Assembly: GCA_021776565.1 (NCBI GenBank)
Contig: JAJFFQ010000048.1
Coordinates: 1 to 64,000 of the forward strand
Direction of reading: 5' to 3'
From: Robiginitomaculum sp.
GTDB taxonomy: Bacteria > Pseudomonadota > Alphaproteobacteria > Caulobacterales > Maricaulaceae
Length of the DNA: 64,000 nucleotides
Below are positions 23,932 through 56,737 of this stretch, piece after piece (position 1 is the first letter of the stretch; the number at the start of each line of letters is the position of its first letter). The translations under genes and the position numbers were made by a program. Below the pieces are notes generated by a model. That model made no database searches and was not told the DNA's origin. It was given only the letters and a program-made list of their open reading frames with translations.

Positions 23932-23958
23932 TTATACCCCGAATTCATGGGGTGTATA
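23932..23958. promoter_or_regulatory. Palindromic operator site 1: TTATACCCCGAATTCATGGGGTGTATAA
   Basis: Core CCCCGA-ATTC-ATGGGG at 23937-23952, about 60 bp upstream of the sensor kinase ORF; matches three more sites in the locus. Confidence 0.7.
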
Positions 23959-24011
23959 AAAACGCTCAACTATGTAAATTGATAGCTTGAGCATTTTGGA
24001 TCACACATACT

Positions 24012-25918
24012 TTGATGAGTATCAATAAAAAAATTTTCTCTCGGCTTGCAATAGACTGGTCACAAACGTGGCCTGTTTTCATTGTTTTGGCCATTATGAT
24101 TGCTTCGGGGATTTGGAATTACACACACACTGAAGGCATCAAACAATATCGCCTTAAACCTGAAAACATTTCATGGGTTTACGCATTGGACACACAATCA
24201 GTACGACAGCCTTATGTTGAAGAACCCGTAAATAACCTCAATACGCCTTGGCCACAAAAAAGTGGAATGCGGCAACAATTCACTTATCGTTTTCACAGTA
24301 ATGCGGGCCTGCCGCATAATTATGCACTCTTTATCCCGCACATGAATGGAGCTATTGACCTTCACGTCAATGGTGTCCCCATTTTCATACCTTGGAAAAC
24401 AACAAAAACTGCAAATTATTTTACTGCAGATAAGGCTGGTTACCTGCCGGTAGGTAACCAGCTTTACCACCCTGGAATCAACCGCCTGGTGCTTACCTCC
24501 GGTAAGACGGCGGCGCATACAGCTTTTACAAGCTTTTATTTTGGGCCTGAAAAAAAACTGTCCCCTATTTTGGCTTATATCCAAAAAATAGATTTTCTAA
24601 GATTAGTTTCAGGTTATCTCATTGTCTTATCAGCCTGCCTTGTTCTGGCTTGGGGAATTTGGATACTAAGCATCAGATATATTTATATCGGCTTGTTTCT
24701 TGGGGTGCTCTGGGTAAAATTTTTAACAATACTCCCGATTGTATCCAGCTATTTGGGTGACTGGTGGCTGCCCGTTAATCAGGGGCTGGTTCTGTTAACA
24801 TTGTTTTTTGCCCTTCGTTTTTCGCATAAAGCAAAAATACTGGCCATGGATTATTGGCCACTCAATCTACTTTTGGGGTTGGCAGCTTTCTTTTCACTAC
24901 TGGGTGGGTATGTCCTGAGCCAGTCATTGAAAATAGCGCATATCATTCTGGGCGGGTTGTGGCCGCTGATGACCCTGACAGTTCTGGCGACTATAGCTTA
25001 TTGTGCCTGGCGATATTTTCGACGAACAAAAACCAGAGCAGCGGTAACGCGTAGTACGACGGTTCTTCTGATTTTGGGTTTTCTGGTTCTGATTGTTAGC
25101 GGTAACCCGTACATGCCGCATTTTGTAGCAGGCTTACTGGAAAGTATTTTTCTATTTTCTACTCTGTTTTGTTCAACTTTTCTTGTCATACATGTTCTGC
25201 ATCAAAGCGGCTTCAGATCGCTGAAATTGCACGTCAGAGACTGCAATTATCCCGATTGATAAATATGCAGAAATTGCAATTGGATTTCCAGTCGAAAAAA
25301 CTGGAACAGGAAGCACAGGCGCGTGCCATTTTACAGGAAAGACAACGCCTGGTTCGCGATATGCATGATGGCATTGGCGGAACGCTGGCATCCCTGATTG
25401 TTCGTGTTCGTCTGGGTAAATCTAGTAAAGAAGAAACCGAAAATGAGTTGCAGAGCGGGCTAACGGATTTACGGCTGATCGTCGACTCGCTTGACCATGT
25501 GGGTCAAGACCTGGATATGGTCATGCATATGTTCAAGGATCGTATCGAGCCTCAGATCGAAGCGTCCAATATGGAATTATTGTGGGAATATGATTCGCAG
25601 CTTAATGCCCTGGCAATGGATGCAGAAAGCACACTACATGTGTTTCGGTTTTTACAAGAAGCTGTAACCAACGCAATTCGCCATTCCGAGGCACAAACTA
25701 TCTAGATTTCGTGCCAAAAACAAAAAACAGGAGATGTCATTAAAATCTGCGTTCGGGATGATGGTATAGGAATTCCGGATACCATAGAAAAGAATACAGG
25801 TCGTGGTATGTATTCCTTGAAACTACGAGCCACACGGCTGGGCGGGAAATGCACAATAGAGCGCGCAAAAAATGCCCGCGGAACAGCGGTAACCCTGTCC
25901 TTTCCCCTTGAAGCCTAA
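24012..25918 (+). pseudogene. Membrane sensor histidine kinase (7TM plus HisKA_3/HATPase), interrupted by a frameshift and an in-frame TAG
   Basis: Frame A (24012-25259) encodes N-terminal, lectin-like and 7TM regions. Frame B (from about 25205) encodes the coiled coil and H-box RLVRDMHDGIGGTLASL, stops at TAG 25703-25705, then continues in the same frame with the ATPase region ICVRDDGIGIPD...TGRGMYSLKLRA to 25918. Confidence 0.8.
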
Positions 25919-26577
25919 GAGCGCAGCAACCCCATTTGCCGCGCTTCATAAATCGCTTCCGAGCGGGAATGAACCTGCAGTTTACGGTATATCGCCTTGA
26001 CATGATCGCCGATTGTATGGCGGGAAATACCCAGTGCTTTTGCAACTTCATCATAGGACAGGCCGCGCGAAAACATCTGCAACACTTCGGTTTCTCGCAA
26101 GGTAAGAACGACAGGTTTTTCGTCTGCACTATTCTCTGAATTCGGGTCAGCACGAACCATTTGCAGCAAGAAACGGGCAGCCTGCGGGCTGATCGGGCTT
26201 TCGCCGCCCAGTGTCATTTGCATGGCCCGGCAAATTTGCTCCGCCGGGGTATCTTTTAACAGATAGCCATTGGCTCCGGAGCGCAAGGCCGTCATGACGG
26301 TTTCCCGATCACCAAGGACGGTTAACACCAGCGCCTTGGCCGGATTGTCGCTTGCCCGCAAATGATTGAGAAAATCAAGGCCGGAGCCATCTTCAAGGTT
26401 AATATCAACCAGGAACAGGTCAGTTTTTGTTGCCGTGCATTCCTTTATGGCTTCGGCCAGAGAACCTGTGGCAAAGCCAGGTGCCATCCCGTCGCACTGG
26501 CTGATAATGGTGATGAGATACCCGCGCAGATCGCTGTCATCTTCCAGCACTGATATGATTTTTATGGTTTCAGTCAT
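25915..26577 (-). CDS. NarL/LuxR-family response regulator
   Basis: Receiver LFLVDINLEDGSG...LKDTPAEQI; HTH LTLRETEVLQMFSRGLSYDEVAKALGISRHTIGDHVKAIYRKLQV. Confidence 0.95.
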   Translation of the reverse strand: MTETIKIISVLEDDSDLRGYLITIISQCDGMAPGFATGSLAEAIKECTATKTDLFLVDINLEDGSGLDFLNHLRASDNPAKALVLTVLGDRETVMTALRSGANGYLLKDTPAEQICRAMQMTLGGESPISPQAARFLLQMVRADPNSENSADEKPVVLTLRETEVLQMFSRGLSYDEVAKALGISRHTIGDHVKAIYRKLQVHSRSEAIYEARQMGLLRS

Positions 26578-26586
26578 TCCTCGATC

Positions 26587-27768
26587 CTAGCGCGACCAGC
26601 AGGTTGCATATGGCTGATCCTTGATGTCGATCCAGTAACGGCCCTGTTTTGCCCGCAAGGCGCCAAACCCGCTTATTTTTTTACCATAACTGCCATCATG
26701 ATAGCTGGCCACACGCCAGCCCTTGCCAAACTGACGGGCACAATAGGCGTTGGCCTCGGTTATGGTTTGAAACTGGCTGCCTTTTACCGGTGGTGTGGAG
26801 GCAAGAATACCGCCGCTCCAGCTACCTGAAGTATCATCACCGCGCCTCTTTGACCGGGGAACTGGCGCATCAATATCCCAAAAACATAGAACCGGGATGT
26901 TTTTATCGCATCCGGTGTCCCCGACCCAAGCATTACATGTGTACTGGTTTTCTGCACCCGTATCACAACTGGCCACAGCAATACCTGTTATGGGTTCCGG
27001 TGATGAAGCTGCGCGAGTGAAGGTCAGCCCCAAACCAGCCTCTGGTTCCTGACAATAGGCAATCGCGGTAAAATCGACGCTTGTGTCATCTTGCACGGTT
27101 ACGTCGATAACGCCTTGTGGTGCCTCCAGATTTACATAATCAAGCAGAGTGTGCCGCTCTGCATTGTTATCATTTTGGCTAGTCTGGCCGGGCAAGGCAT
27201 ATCCGTCAAAATAGATGTTTATGAACGGGGCGCTATACAAATTTCCCTGCCTGCTCCAGTTCGGGTTGCTGCCAAGGGAGGAAATTTCAGTTAAAAAGTA
27301 ATCATGATCTTTTACCCTGGTCGGCTTTGTAAGGTTTTCTATATTCCCAATAGCCAGCGTATCGTTATTGGTAACACCAAAGGCTTTCATGCGGATCATG
27401 AACAGGCCTTTTGCAACCCGGCCTTCGGCCTGAAAATAATCATAAATCAGGTGATCGGGTTGTGAATTGTCATACTGGCTGGCCAGTAAAAAGGATTTCA
27501 GGCGCGGGGTTAACAGGCGAGGATGAGGCGTAACCGGTTCATCACCTGCCGGTGAGAAATAATCCTCAACGCCACGGACAATCACATGTTTGGTTTCCGC
27601 CGGGTGGCATTGAAAATCATTCAGTATTTGCATGCCTTGCGGCGTAAGATCGCTGGCAAGGCGCGCCGGACTGGCCACAGGAAACCCCATGCCCGACCAC
27701 AAGAACAGAGCTGTTGCCCCGACAAGAAAGCTGACGGTGATGAGCAGGATACGCAAAGACCGGGTCAA
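26587..27768 (-). CDS. Exported/membrane-anchored protein with C-terminal Cys/Trp-rich domain (paralogue 1)
   Basis: N-terminal hydrophobic segment; C-terminus GDTGCDKNIPVLCFWDIDAPVP...WSGGILASTPPVKGSQFQTITEANAYCARQFGKGWRVASYHDG...CWSR. Ends 9 bp before the response regulator start. Confidence 0.75.
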   Translation of the reverse strand: MTRSLRILLITVSFLVGATALFLWSGMGFPVASPARLASDLTPQGMQILNDFQCHPAETKHVIVRGVEDYFSPAGDEPVTPHPRLLTPRLKSFLLASQYDNSQPDHLIYDYFQAEGRVAKGLFMIRMKAFGVTNNDTLAIGNIENLTKPTRVKDHDYFLTEISSLGSNPNWSRQGNLYSAPFINIYFDGYALPGQTSQNDNNAERHTLLDYVNLEAPQGVIDVTVQDDTSVDFTAIAYCQEPEAGLGLTFTRAASSPEPITGIAVASCDTGAENQYTCNAWVGDTGCDKNIPVLCFWDIDAPVPRSKRRGDDTSGSWSGGILASTPPVKGSQFQTITEANAYCARQFGKGWRVASYHDGSYGKKISGFGALRAKQGRYWIDIKDQPYATCWSR

Positions 27769-27782
27769 TGATTTTCCTCCCC

Positions 27783-27824
27783 TTCAGTATTGGCCATTCA
27801 GTATTGGCCATTCAGTATTGGCTC
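27783..27824. repeat. 14-bp tandem repeat (TTCAGTATTGGCCA) x3
   Basis: Read directly; lies in the gap between paralogues 1 and 2. Confidence 0.9.
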
Positions 27825-27859
27825 ACCCGTTTATAGCACGCAGAATACAGCCTGTACCT

Positions 27860-28426
27860 TCAACGTTTCCAGCAGGTGCCGCCGTGTCGATCAGTTATCT
27901 CTACCCACATGCGCGTCTTCGGATCGCCGACATTGCCATAGGCGCGAAAATTCCAGCCCTTGCCCTGGTCAAACCTGGCGACTTTCCAGCCTTCGCCAAA
28001 CTCTTTGGCGCAGTAATGATCTGCATTTGTTATGGTATCAAATGTTGAGCCAGCCACATCTGGCGTACTGGCCATCACCCCGCCTGACCATTTATTCTTG
28101 TCTGTCCCAACTGGCAGGGATGCCGGGATAGGGGCGTTCAGATCAAGAAAATACAACAGGGGGCGGGCAACATCGCAAGAGCTGTCCCCCTCATAGGGGT
28201 TGCATTGGCTGCCATCCGGCCCGTTGCAGCCAACTTGCGATACACCGCTGACCGACGAAGAACCATTGAGCATAAAGGTCAGGCCGTTTTTGGGCGGATC
28301 GCCAAGTATCGGCTTTCCCTTTGTGTCTGCTGCCTGTGCATCGGGCACGGATTTGCCAGTGAAAAACAACAGCGCCAGTATGCTCATCACCAGGGCCGCC
28401 TGTATCAAAATGATCCCTGTTTTCAT
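27860..28426 (-). CDS. Exported protein with C-terminal Cys/Trp-rich domain (paralogue 2)
   Basis: Signal peptide; CNPYEGDSSCDVARPLLYFLDLNAPIP...WSGGVMASTPDVAGSTFDTITNADHYCAKEFGEGWKVARF...CWKR. Confidence 0.75.
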   Translation of the reverse strand: MKTGIILIQAALVMSILALLFFTGKSVPDAQAADTKGKPILGDPPKNGLTFMLNGSSSVSGVSQVGCNGPDGSQCNPYEGDSSCDVARPLLYFLDLNAPIPASLPVGTDKNKWSGGVMASTPDVAGSTFDTITNADHYCAKEFGEGWKVARFDQGKGWNFRAYGNVGDPKTRMWVEITDRHGGTCWKR

Positions 28427-28511
28427 TTTGTTGGCTCCATCAAGGGTGTGTCATCAGGTTATGATGTCTGGTATTGGTGTTGAATAATCTAGCAGGTTTT
28501 TGTTGCCAGAC

Positions 28512-28531
28512 ACCCCCATGACTATGGGGGT
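28512..28531. promoter_or_regulatory. Palindromic operator site 2: ACCCCCAT-GACT-ATGGGGGT
   Basis: Perfect 8-bp arms, about 85 bp upstream of paralogue 2. Confidence 0.75.
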
Positions 28532-28643
28532 TGTAACGCATCTGCCCCAATGACGTTTCACGATCATCGGGGCAGAGCAGTGTTAACCAACAGGATGTCA
28601 GGGGATACCGGCCCGGTTTGAACAGTCGGGCCGGAGCATCCCG

Positions 28644-30155
28644 TTAGTCAAAGAGTTTTTTGAACTTCTTTTTTGCTTTTTCCTTTGCCTTGTTTTTGGC
28701 TTTATTCATTTTGTTTTTCGCCTTGTCTTTGGCTTCTTTTTTCAGCTTTTTTTGAAGTTTGCGCTGAGCCTTGTTGTCGGCCTTGTCCTGTTTCACAGCG
28801 CCGTCCTGGCCCTCGCTGTGTGTCGATTCCGATGTCTCTTCAATCGACATTTGTGCCTGATCCAGACGCTGGCTGGTAATCCGCCCGTTTTTCAGGGTTT
28901 TAATCACCAGATAAGGGCTGGCAGAGGAGCGCGAGCCGTTTTTGTTGGTGCCACCCATCACTTGCACATTGACCATGTAATAGCTTTCTGAACACTCGTT
29001 TGAGAAGGCAACATTGTCATCGTTCAGACGTAATTTTGTTTGAACCAGATACCAGTTGTTTACCTGCAAACTCGCGTCCGGCATGGTGAAGAAGTTGGGC
29101 GTGCCTGATGATGGCGAGGTATTACTGCCTGCCGTCCAGGTAACAAAATGATAACTGCTTACTGGCATGCCTAGCCCCGGCGCATTTGGTGTCTGCCCTT
29201 TATCCTTCAAACGGATTGACAACGTTATAGTCGTAATACCGGGATCAAGGGCGTTCAGATAATTGATATACGCCTGCATTTGCGCATTGATCGTGGCGCC
29301 AGGGTTAAAGGTGAGCGTGTAGGGGTCTGAAATACCGCCAGAACCATTATAATACAGACTGCCCTCAAGTCTTGTATCATCCCATGGTGGGCAGCAGGTA
29401 GAGATGTTCGCTGGCCCATCTGTAAGACCACCATTAAGTAGCCACTGCAAAATATTTGGGTTGAGAGGCAGGGGGGTGAGTTCAATCGTGCCGCCGTTAA
29501 TAATTGTAAAATCATCATAGTGCGGACAATTAGTCTGAAATTTTACAAACCCATTATCGAAATTGGCATTATTGTTCATACGGACAACAAAACTGTAGGT
29601 CTGGCCAGCCTGAAGATTTGCAGTGAACGAGGATGACACCCACGGATCAGTCTTTGACCTTCCGGCGGGGAGCGGGATAGGGCTGGTCTGCCCCACCAAA
29701 GAACCGGTCAGGCCATCGCCTTCGCGAATAGATACCGATGCCGTTGCCATTTGATTGGCTCGTGTTGAAAAAGAGCCTCCAAAAACTACCTCTCCGGAAC
29801 ATTTTGGAACGAAACTCTGGTAGAAATCGTTTCGACCATTGGTGATATCCAGATAATACTGATCGATGCCGGCACCAGGGGCGCTGGCATCAGATTCCGG
29901 GCCATTATTGGCATAGCTAAGACCGCCGGGGCCATCAACCTTGACCAGATTGGGCCTGGCCCCGGTTCCAAACGTCCAGCCGGTGGGCTGGTTATTTACG
30001 TTTACATTGGTGTGGTTCCCAAAGCCGGGCTGAGGATCAGCCTCAAAATCTCCGTTTACCAGCACATTGCCTGATAATTGCGCAAGGGCCGGTGTTGCCA
30101 GTGCCATGCTGGCCATTGCCAGTGCGGTTAATGTTTTTTTGAGTTTCAGTTTCAT
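28644..30155 (-). CDS. Secreted protein with an extremely lysine-rich C-terminal tail
   Basis: Signal peptide MKLKLKKTLTALAMASMALATPALA; carbohydrate-binding-like N-terminal half (NVLVNGDFEADP...); tail KAQRKLQKKLKKEAKDKAKNKMNKAKNKAKEKAKKKFKKLFD. Confidence 0.75.
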   Translation of the reverse strand: MKLKLKKTLTALAMASMALATPALAQLSGNVLVNGDFEADPQPGFGNHTNVNVNNQPTGWTFGTGARPNLVKVDGPGGLSYANNGPESDASAPGAGIDQYYLDITNGRNDFYQSFVPKCSGEVVFGGSFSTRANQMATASVSIREGDGLTGSLVGQTSPIPLPAGRSKTDPWVSSSFTANLQAGQTYSFVVRMNNNANFDNGFVKFQTNCPHYDDFTIINGGTIELTPLPLNPNILQWLLNGGLTDGPANISTCCPPWDDTRLEGSLYYNGSGGISDPYTLTFNPGATINAQMQAYINYLNALDPGITTITLSIRLKDKGQTPNAPGLGMPVSSYHFVTWTAGSNTSPSSGTPNFFTMPDASLQVNNWYLVQTKLRLNDDNVAFSNECSESYYMVNVQVMGGTNKNGSRSSASPYLVIKTLKNGRITSQRLDQAQMSIEETSESTHSEGQDGAVKQDKADNKAQRKLQKKLKKEAKDKAKNKMNKAKNKAKEKAKKKFKKLFD

Positions 30156-30240
30156 GATTTCCTCCAGAGGTTATGGTTCATGACGGATTTACCCGTCAGT
30201 CCCTCGCCCTTCAGGAAGTCAAAATTATTTTGATCCGGCT

Positions 30241-30258
30241 ATCCCATGTTTATGGGAT
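30241..30258. promoter_or_regulatory. Palindromic operator site 3: ATCCCAT-GTTT-ATGGGAT
   Basis: Perfect 7-bp arms between divergent genes: 86 bp from the 30155 start and 91 bp from the 30349 start. Confidence 0.72.
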
Positions 30259-30348
30259 GTGCCGGGTGTTCATGAACAGGTATTTCTAAACTTCAGCACC
30301 CGGTTCATTCTTTCGGATGCAATTCTTGAAGGTGCAAGCGAGGTTGTC

Positions 30349-31431
30349 ATGGAAAATACCCCCAACAACACTTTGAACTTTTCTTCATCTGTATCGGTGC
30401 CGCATGCCATCACCTTTATAAAAATAATGTTGTTAGTGTTTGCACTGTGCCTTGGATTTGCGCTACAGCCCGCAAAAGCTGATGTCACGTGTTCCACAGG
30501 CGGGGCAACCACTGGCTCGCCAAACGCCATTGGGTTTTATGTGGATTTTGATACAAGAAAATGAACAAAGGGCGGGTATCCGGGGCAGGGCAACGGGATT
30601 CATTACAGCCTCAGCTCCGGCAACACTTCGGGGAACCCGGATGTATTCAAGGTGCGCTTTACCTCATACATGTGCGGCGACGCCAATACCAAAAGACATG
30701 GCCGGGAAGCCGATTTAACGCCGCCTTCCGGTGATAAAAAGGGCGTAAACAAGCCCTATACGCTTTGGGGTGGTGTAACCTATTTTGGCGCCATTCCTGG
30801 CCCGACAACGGGCAGCAAAACCACTAAACTCACGGTGACCTCCACCGTGATGAACAATAATAATACCAGCAATCCGGTCAAATATGAATTTACCGTAGAT
30901 GATCTTGGCAAACCATTAGGCCAGCACAAGTTCATATACGGGCCGGTGAAAATATCCGGCGGGCAGTTTGATGACCCCACTTTTCCTGCACCCGTCTGCA
31001 ATAAGGGCATGACCTGGAAAAAGTATAGTGCTGATCCCGCTCCCGGAAGTGTGGACGTTGGCTGCGGCGGCGGTGCGGGCAGGTGTAACCCCTATCAAGG
31101 CGATACATTTTGCAATCAGGAACGCCCGTTGCTTTGCTTTTATGATGGCAATTTTCAGGAACCAATGACCCTGCAACAGGGTAAGCCTGGCAGGCACAAA
31201 TGGTCTGGTGGCCTGGTGGTAACAACAAACAATGTAAAAGGATTAGATTTCAAAACCATTGGGCAGGCCAATGCGCGCTGCGTTAAAGAGTTTGGCGCAG
31301 ACTGGCGCCTGGCGGATTTCCATGACGGGCAAGGCTGGTACATGACCGCCTATGGCGACAGCAGCTCATTACAGGATCGCTTTTGGGTGAACATCAAAAA
31401 CCAGAGCAAGGGCAATTGCTGGGCGCAATAG
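30349..31431 (+). pseudogene. Exported protein with C-terminal Cys/Trp-rich domain (paralogue 3), interrupted by in-frame TGA at 30562-30564
   Basis: MENTPNN...AKADVTCSTGG...DFDTRK-TGA-TKGGYPGQGNGIHYSLSSGNTSGNPDVFKVRFTSYMCGD... continues in the same frame to CNPYQGDTFCNQERPLLCFYDG...WSGG...FGADWRLADFHDGQGW...CWAQ. Confidence 0.75.
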
Positions 31432-31471
31432 AACCTTCGCATCATGGAACTGGAGCCGCGGCTCACAAAAC

Positions 31472-31491
31472 ACCCCCATATTCATGGGATA
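31472..31491. promoter_or_regulatory. Palindromic operator site 4: ACCCCCAT-ATTC-ATGGGATA
   Basis: CCCAT-ATTC-ATGGG core, about 60 bp upstream of the 31552 ORF. Confidence 0.68.
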
Positions 31492-31551: not shown

Positions 31552-31914
31552 ATGAAAAAACTTACATGTTTAACCATAGGAACCGCGTTCATGTTTGGCG
31601 TATTGGCCAGCCCGGCGCTGGGGGCGGATAAAAAGCAAAAGAAACAGCAGCGTGGTGCAGTCGTGTCAACGAAGAGCAAGGGCAAACCTGTCGATCATGG
31701 CAAGGATATTCTGGAAGATTGTTGTGAGGATTATAACACTTCCCGCTCCAATGCAGCTACGTTACAAGATAAGCAGTGCGCCAAAAACAATAAAAACAAA
31801 CCCTGCAATGCGAAACAACTGGCCAAATTCAACAATAAAGCCAAACCCGTCGCTACCGGTAAGGATGTTCATGCCGTAGATCATAACTCCACCAGATCCA
31901 ATAAATCAAACTAA
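31552..31914 (+). CDS. Small secreted Lys/Asn-rich protein with paired cysteines
   Basis: Signal peptide MKKLTCLTIGTAFMFGVLASPALGADKKQKKQQRG; RBS-like gaggagac upstream. Confidence 0.65.
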   Translation: MKKLTCLTIGTAFMFGVLASPALGADKKQKKQQRGAVVSTKSKGKPVDHGKDILEDCCEDYNTSRSNAATLQDKQCAKNNKNKPCNAKQLAKFNNKAKPVATGKDVHAVDHNSTRSNKSN

Positions 31915-31917
31915 CTC

Positions 31918-32215
31918 CGGCAGGGCCATACATCCAGGTGGCCTGTCCATCCGGGAACAGCATCCGGGACTTGCGCCCCAGGCCATCATAAACCGTGCTG
32001 ATCGAACCCATAGAGGTGCAGGCACCATTGGTGCAGCCATCATAAAAATGCGTGGTTGGTCGCCCGTCCTGATCGTAAAAATAAGTCTGCTTGAACTGGT
32101 TGTTCAACCCGCCCGGCGTGCTCAAGGTGCTGTTGCGGACACACATTTCAAACCCTCGCGCGTATTTAATATAGGTCATGAATATGCGCCAGTAGGTAGT
32201 GTCATTTACCGTGCT
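31918..32215 (-). pseudogene. Internal fragment of an Rhs/YD-repeat protein gene
   Basis: Minus-strand translation QTYFYDQDGRPTTHFYDG...STVYDGLGRKSRMLFPDGQATWMYGPAG is YD-repeat-like with no credible start or end. Confidence 0.7.
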
Positions 32216-54202: not shown

Positions 54203-54355
54203 CAAAAATTTGTGTCACTGGCAAACACAATGCCGGGAGAGGCATTATATTCATCCATGTCATCGCAATCTTCATGCCAACCATAATGGTACATAGGACA
54301 TATGCACTATCAGTGAGCCGTATCGCGTACCTGCAATTTGTGGAATAGTTGTGTG

Positions 54356-56140
54356 ATGACCGCAGAAGCACAAATAACAGACCTTGCAGAAGGTGATGCT
54401 GAACGGCTACGCACCCGGGCAACACAAATGCTTGTTGGCGTTGGTATTTTTCCCGCAGTCATGCACATTGCTGTGGTCAATTTGCTGGCGGTAGTTCTGT
54501 GGCCGGCAACCAATCACATCACCACAGGTATCTGGGCGGCAGGCTTAAGTACTTGTGTCTTGTTTCAGGTTACATTGATATGGCGCAATGGTGGACGCAC
54601 GCTTGCGATAAAGGAAGCCCAAACATTACAAAAGAGATTTGATGGTGCCGCTCTATGCGTCGGTTTTTTTTGGGGCATGGCGGGTGTGGCCCTGTTTCCG
54701 GAACATGAGCCTGGCCGCGTGCTTTTTCTGGTGTTTGTGATGGGCGGAATGTCAATGGGTGCGGTCAGTACACAGCATGTCAGCCTGCGCACATGCCTAT
54801 TTTCCATCGTTCCAGGTATGGCCCCGCTGGGTGTGCGTTATATGTTTTCTGATCTGCCATTTAATATCGCATCGGGCATTTTATTACTGGTCTACGCGGC
54901 TGTACTGGTCAACATGGCGGTACGACTGCACCGCTTTGCACACCGGGCTTTTGCCTTGCAACTGGAACAGGAGCGCCTGCTTGATCGGCTGTCTACGCAA
55001 GCCATTGCCCTTAACGAAGCCCGCAGCGATGCCGAACAGGCCAACGCCGCCAAATCTCGCTTTCTTGCCCAGGCCAGTCATGATTTACGCCAACCCCTGC
55101 ACGCCATAAGCCTGTTTGTTGAATCATTACCCGAAGCCCGGGATAGTTCTGAACACGAAAACATAATGAACCGCGTGCGCCAGTCACTTGATGTACTGAC
55201 CAAACTGTTCGACTCTTTGCTGGACGTGACGATGCTGGATACTGGCGGCATAGAGGTGCGCCGATCAGTGTTCCTGCCCCGTGATGTCATTGACGAGGTC
55301 AGGCGGGATTTCAGCCTTGTTGCAGAGGCCAGCAATGTTGAAATATGCGTAGTTTACTCTGATTTGGCAGTAAAAAGTGACCCGGTTTTATTGCGTCGCA
55401 TGTTGCAAAACCTGGTTTCAAACGCGATTCGACACACCGAAGGCGGCCGCGTGCTGGTCGGGTGCCGCCGCCAGGCTGGTAAACTGTCCATTGAGGTAAC
55501 CGACACTGGCCCTGGTATTGATGCCAGGGATCAGGAGCGTATTTTTGCTGAATTTACACGGCTCGATTCAGCGCGCATGGGCCTGACAGCGCAACCAGGG
55601 TTGGGACTTGGTCTTTCTATCGTCAAACGCATTGCAGAAGAACTGGGCCTACATGTCAAAATCACTTCCAGGCTTGGTCATGGATCAACGTTCAGAATTG
55701 GCGGACTTGATATTGCTGATAGCAAAGGTCTGGATAAAGTCATTGCTTCGCCTTTGGCACAAGGCGTTGTCAATGATGCTTGCGTTTTTGTACTTGATGA
55801 TGACCCCGAAACTCTGACAGCAACGCAAATGTTGCTGGAGCGTTGGGGATGCCGTGTGCAAGTCTCTCAGGACTGGCACGACCTGATCGATGCCTCCATG
55901 GATGTTCTCATTTGTGATTTTGAGATCAGTCCTGAAAAGACCGGTCTTGATGTCATAAAAGACATGGTGGCAAGGCCATCAGGTGCGCCACCAACCATTA
56001 TGATCTCTGGCAACACATCCGCCGAACTTCGCCGCGAAACAGCGGCCAGATCCATTCCCCTTTTGCATAAACCCATCCGCCCGGCGCAACTCAGATCTGC
56101 ACTTCTAAATGCACTGGCCGCCTCAGGTAAATCCACGTGA
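54356..56140 (+). CDS. Hybrid sensor histidine kinase with C-terminal receiver
   Basis: H-box [21 protein letters not shown], ATPase [23 protein letters not shown]-like motifs, receiver [11 protein letters not shown]. Confidence 0.94.
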
Positions 56141-56737
56141 GGCGGCAAAAGAGGCGGCCGCAGAACGACTTGACAGATCAAGGCTGCGCAACAATGCCGA
56201 AACATGGATACGAACCGTATAGGGCGAAATATCCAGTTCACGGGCAATTTCCTTGTTTGATAACCCTCTGGCGATAAAGCGAAGCACATCCAGTTGTCGC
56301 GGCGTCAGGACTGACAAGTCATTGCCGCCCGTTGCCGCTTGCGCTGGGCCAGAGGCCCGCACAACCAGTGTTTCGCCATCCATCACAGATAGAAATGCCG
56401 CGCAAATATCCTCTGGCCGAGCGGTTTTCGAGACAAACGCATTGGCCCCGGCGGCCATAACACTATCGATCAGGGCGTTGTCATGGGTCATGGATACGGC
56501 AATGATCGGGGTTAACGGCAGTTTCCGCCGTAGTGCAGAAAAGTGCTTTATGGCGTCAAATCCGGGAAACAACAGATCCAGAACAACCAGATCAGGCGAG
56601 CCTTGTTTTTCAATTGCGCGCTCCATCCCTGCACGATCACCCGCTTCATTGATTGTAGAATTGGCAAACAGATTGCGCATCATAATGGCCATACCGCTAC
56701 GAAATACCGGGTGGTCATCGACAAGGAGAATTTTCAT
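56123..56737 (-). CDS. LuxR-family response regulator
   Basis: [62 protein letters not shown]. Confidence 0.95.

Follow-up and report, generated by a model that had tools for sequence, protein, structure and literature searches.

A Predicted Operator Set for a NarL-Type Two-Component Cassette Encoding Secreted Cysteine-Rich Proteins in Robiginitomaculum and Its Relatives

Three exact copies and one half-matching relative of the inverted repeat CCCAT-N4-ATGGG were found upstream of the genes of a two-component cassette in a 64,000-nucleotide stretch of DNA from Robiginitomaculum sp. (contig JAJFFQ010000048.1, positions 1 to 64,000; the window). With a probability of about 0.83, these dyads are predicted to be pathway-specific operators that are bound by the cassette's own NarL-type response regulator. 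From sequence comparison, the predicted operator set is real, conserved, and nearly exclusive to the cassette, and its interpretation as a regulon is probably right. The co-occurrence of the sites with the cassette, their geometry, their rarity in the genome, and the matching of their arms within lineages were computed. No description of the cassette was found in a literature search. The result is an operator prediction, testable at the bench, for a previously unnamed two-component cassette of marine bacteria of the Caulobacterales group with two to four sites per genome, and it connects an uncharacterised secreted cysteine-rich domain with a defined, predicted regulatory input.

Genes and Dyads in the Window

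The genes of the cassette are as follows.

24012-25918, plus strand: sensor histidine kinase of the HisKA_3 type, disrupted
25915-26577, minus strand: NarL-type response regulator, receiver and GerE/LuxR helix-turn-helix, intact
26587-27768, minus strand: paralogue 2 (P2), with an N-terminal hydrophobic segment, a conserved N-domain, and a C-terminal Cys-rich domain
27860-28426, minus strand: paralogue 1 (P1), with an N-terminal hydrophobic segment and a Cys-rich domain; first gene of the operon P1-P2-regulator
28644-30155, minus strand: secreted protein with a Lys-rich tail
30349-31431, plus strand: paralogue 3 (P3), with a Cys-rich domain and an in-frame TGA at 30562-30564
31552-31914, plus strand: small secreted protein

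The regulator gene converges on the kinase gene and overlaps its end. A second converging and slightly overlapping gene pair is present in the window at 54338-56737, consisting of a 600-residue frame and a 204-residue frame that starts like a response regulator. A short frame on the minus strand at 31853-32179, which resembles a fragment of an RHS/YD-repeat protein, adjoins the cassette.

The four dyads are given below, together with the distance from the end of each site to the start codon.

Site 1, 23937-23952: degenerate dyad CCCCGA-ATTC-ATGGGG, its left arm the CCCGA variant, upstream of the kinase gene (60 nt)
Site 2, 28512-28531: perfect dyad ACCCCCAT-GACT-ATGGGGGT, upstream of P1 and thus of the operon (88 nt)
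Site 3, 30241-30258: perfect dyad ATCCCAT-GTTT-ATGGGAT, between the divergent genes for the Lys-tail protein and P3 (87 nt; 93 nt to the divergent P3)
Site 4, 31475-31488: exact core CCCAT-ATTC-ATGGG, upstream of the small secreted protein (63 nt)

The original prediction described four copies of one palindrome, CCCCAT-N4-ATGGGG. The coordinates of all four were confirmed; the number was not. The exact core CCCAT-N4-ATGGG is found at 28515-28528, 30243-30256, and 31475-31488 (sites 2 to 4), and the full hexamer form is exact in site 2 only. The outer letters of the arms extend the core to TCCCAT/ATGGGA in site 3 and to CCCCAT/ATGGGA in site 4. Two mismatches in the left arm of site 1 leave a half match, CCCGA-ATTC-ATGGG, and this site also forms a longer outer dyad of its own, TTTATACCCC/GGTGTATAAA. 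The measured distances to the start codons agree with the 60-90 bp that had been proposed. A promoter scan gave no excess over shuffled sequences, and nothing in it fixed the distance from the dyads to the transcript starts.

Rarity of the Core in the Genome

The whole genome (2.9 Mb; 2907430 nucleotides in 74 contigs) was scanned by pattern search, in place of the matrix scan that had been suggested with the original prediction. The exact core was found six times, compared with once for a reversed-pattern control. Three of the six copies lie in a 7.5-kb cluster, no more than 3 kb apart, and these are the only intergenic ones; the other three are inside reading frames. If the copies were placed uniformly, the chance of finding at least three of six in the cluster would be about 3.5e-7 by our own arithmetic, 20 x (7560/2907430)^3. 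When one mismatch was allowed, 120 matches were obtained versus 61 for the control. The one-mismatch motif is therefore common, information is limited to exact or near-exact sites, and a weaker match has no evidential value on its own.

The sites are restricted to cassette promoters in the window genome (G000) and in two Hyphomonas-group genomes (G204 and G142). Genome G338 has two more intergenic sites outside the cassette promoters, and the motif is thus near-exclusive rather than exclusive. In contig C38 of G338 (L121:1650-1690), an exact ACCCCCAT-AATC-ATGGGGTGT dyad is located between a ZapA-like and a 5-formyltetrahydrofolate cyclo-ligase-like gene, a gap that is the usual neighborhood of 6S RNA. 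The second intergenic site of this genome is at L119:1823.

Related Cassettes and Their Dyads

Related loci were found by starting from the Cys-rich paralogues. The same gene set is present in a genome of the same genus (G017), in several other genera of the family, in Hyphomonas beringensis and a relative, and in a Caulobacter MAG. The cassette is sparse, with 14 of the 398 genomes of the order carrying it (E <= 1e-20); across the class it was found in 3 of 385 genomes, the window genome counted in, and hardly any cassettes lay beyond the order. The complete loci have a constant order in which the kinase gene runs one way and the regulator-P2-P1 operon converges on it, often with an overlap of a few bases. 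A secreted relative of the Lys-tail protein is encoded divergently from the kinase in several cassettes. A relative of the small secreted protein was sought in the other cassette loci, and none was found.

The sites were expected to be conserved in relatives with the same gene set, and a dyad of the 5-4-5 form was indeed found at the paired cassette promoters of at least six other genomes. In G017 and G338, both the kinase gene and P1 are preceded by an exact core, and G818/Hellea has one before P1. A core with one mismatch stands before the kinase gene and before P1 of G024; in G409, such cores precede P1 and the gene for the secreted protein. Both cassette promoters of G204 and G142 carry CACAT-N4-ATGTG, and the longer word CCACAT-NATC-ATGTGG, with at most one mismatch, occurs in exactly two places in each of these genomes of about 3.8 Mb, both of them cassette promoters. 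The arms vary by lineage and match within a genome, as CCCAT/ATGGG, TCCAT/ATGGG, CACAT/ATGTG, and the asymmetric CCCAT/ATGTG that is found at both G024 promoters.

Some of the sites in relatives were picked up through their resemblance to the first pattern. In a test that presupposes no sequence, a lineage-specific 5-N4-5 inverted word common to the kinase and operon promoters was found in G017, G338, G024, G204, and G142, and one common to the secreted-protein and operon promoters in G409. Some 5-N4-5 word was shared by 8 of 13 promoter pairs, compared with a mean of 1.4 and a maximum of 5 in mononucleotide shuffles, where the count of eight takes in words of the window and of Caulobacter that are not the dyad. 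Shifted copies of these words are also caught at neighboring spacers, which therefore score much as the 4-nt spacer does; the test supports a shared dyad and does not alone fix the spacer. Among all pentamer dyads with spacers of 0-14, CCCAT-N4-ATGGG ranked first in 29 promoter regions from outside the window. The dyad is weak or altered, or is present at one promoter only, in the more distant cassettes of G031, G278, G185, the Caulobacter MAG, and G805. The weaker dyads CCCGA-GAAA-TCGGG (G278), CCCTT-GAAT-AAGGG (G802), and CCCGC-AAAT-GTGGG (G185) are suggestive of a relationship to the core.

Regulator, Kinase, and Proposed Mechanism

In the proposed mechanism, the sensor kinase would phosphorylate the NarL-type response regulator of the cassette, and a dimer of the regulator would bind the inverted pentamers, 4 bp apart, at the promoter of the kinase gene, at that of the P1-P2-regulator operon, and at those of the secreted-protein genes that accompany them. 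The regulator would control its own expression, as the original prediction also held, together with the expression of a group of Cys-rich proteins that are secreted or anchored in the membrane. Since the kinase and regulator genes are transcribed head-on from separate promoters, each promoter would have its own site, and the two halves of the system would be kept co-regulated. We infer the binding by the regulator, its dimeric mode, activation rather than repression, and the signal. The earlier description of a self-contained regulon is upheld by the recurrence of the same gene set, the geometry of the dyads, and the small number of other intergenic sites, and it is weakened by the half match at site 1 and the broken kinase.

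The regulator consists of a receiver domain (Response_reg, 3.9e-16) followed by a GerE/LuxR helix-turn-helix (GerE, 1.3e-15), the arrangement of the NarL/FixJ type. The residues D13, D58, and K108, which correspond to the acidic pocket, the phosphoacceptor aspartate, and the lysine, are invariant in four cassette regulators. The resemblance to NarX-NarL and NarQ-NarP is that NarL is the best NCBIfam and PDB sequence match of the regulator and that the kinase is of the HisKA_3 type. However, the score against the NCBIfam NarL equivalog was 115.5 bits, well short of the curated cut-off of 250. In addition, no nitrate sensor domain was detected here, and the spacer is 4 bp, whereas a NarL site is a pair of heptamers with a 2-bp spacer.

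The HisKA_3 and HATPase domains were found in 11 of 11 cassette kinases of the relatives at E values up to 5, several of the single matches being weak; the best matches were 1.8e-5 for HisKA_3 and 3e-16 for HATPase_c. The window kinase has the same parts in a broken frame. A structure model of the kinase, poor enough (pLDDT 54, low confidence) to serve for rough topology only, suggests an outer beta-sandwich, then approximately seven helices, and then the kinase core, as in the 7TMR-DISM sensors. Unlike those sensors, the 11 cassette kinases gave no match to Pfam 7TMR-DISM_7TM or 7TMR-DISMED2 at E values up to 5.

The ComP-ComA system of Bacillus subtilis offers a close parallel in spacing, in that ComA is a NarL-type regulator that recognizes an inverted repeat of two short elements for which a 4-nt spacer is optimal (PMC4797271). 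It differs in its arms (TTGCGG versus CCCAT here) and in its phylum, and in the cassette described here the targets are local secreted-protein genes and the kinase and regulator genes are convergent.

Alternative Explanations

An unlinked transcription factor could instead control the cassette and use the dyads as its operators. The connection between the sites and the linked regulator is itself predicted, which leaves room for this explanation, but we consider it quite unlikely. A factor with a wider role should have more intergenic sites, yet nearly all of the exact cores examined outside the cassettes are inside frames, and the two cassette promoters are the only places of the motif in G204 and G142. 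Moreover, the linked regulator is the sole transcription factor that is conserved in the cassette.

It is very unlikely that the dyads act instead as RNA hairpins in 5'-leaders, where they would serve as attenuators, stability elements, or sites for an RNA-binding protein. The sites are 18-100 nt from the starts, and short hairpins with loops of 4 to 8 nt are predicted for sites 1-3. However, the asymmetric arms are kept at both G024 sites at the cost of a base pair, and these two sites folded no better than shuffled sequences. In G017 and in the G204/G142 pair, two divergent genes share one dyad, and the right- and left-arm variants resemble half-sites rather than compensated stems. Chance or a recent duplication of promoter DNA is barely credible as the source of the similar palindromes: the G017 sites at L033:3007 and 5367 are in duplicated upstream sequence, but the flanks differ among the window sites and among the kinase and P1 sites of other genomes, the clustering is improbable, and the dyads are conserved across genera.

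Disrupted Frames in the Window Strain

Operators for the cassette's own regulator remain the preferred reading of the dyads; whether they belong to a working circuit in this strain is doubtful. The kinase of the relative Robiginitomaculum OFTM333 is intact; compared with it, the window kinase is frameshifted near 25215-25259 and interrupted by an in-frame TAG at 25703-25705, and the window genome appears to lack a functional cognate kinase. No such lesion affects the regulator, P1, or P2, whose frames are intact. A rough check of the long frames of the window revealed no further obviously split gene, which favors true decay of the kinase and P3 genes over an assembly fault. The two lesions in the kinase and the stop codon in P3 suggest that the circuit may be decaying: it may be partly decayed in this strain, or another phosphodonor may drive it. 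The original claim of a two-component regulon in the window stands for the operator set and is in doubt for the circuit. The P1 gene of another genus (G031, L036:10073-10629) is also split over two frames, and decay of the Cys-rich paralogues may be recurrent.

Variation of the Regulator and Its Predicted Operators

The recognition helix of the regulator occurs as the variants HHTVxDYVK, INTVRDHTK, LNTVREYTK, and HTVNDHVK, which differ between groups with different arms. The odds are about even that this undescribed regulator and its private operators changed together across lineages and form a natural series for the study of coevolution. Because the changes in the arms and in the recognition helix follow the phylogeny, they are no proof of coevolution by themselves. 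A direct test of joint change in a NarL-type regulator and its operators is made possible by the matching of arm changes across lineages. The series, if true, is attached to a family of secreted Cys-rich proteins whose fold is not matched in the PDB.

Cysteine-Rich Paralogues and Secreted Proteins

The three paralogues have in common a C-terminal domain of approximately 140 residues, in which several Cys and Trp residues are invariant. From their N-terminal hydrophobic segments, they are predicted to be secreted or membrane-anchored. The domain matched no Pfam or NCBIfam model and gave no convincing sequence or fold match in the PDB. The model of P1 is usable (pLDDT 79) but matched no fold in the PDB (best E value 0.05, TM score about 0.2), and no function was therefore assigned from the fold. 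The window protein and the corresponding protein of G017 carry the Lys-rich tail, which is absent from Hyphomonas-group relatives that are 50% identical. Elsewhere in the window genome (contig C24, L037:9197-11419), a protein of approximately 740 residues terminates in a fourth copy of the domain, and it has a counterpart in G017 (L034:7853-10108); no exact dyad was found within the 19 kb searched. Distant matches to the Cys-rich domain are located on a Streptomyces plasmid and on a Deinococcus plasmid.
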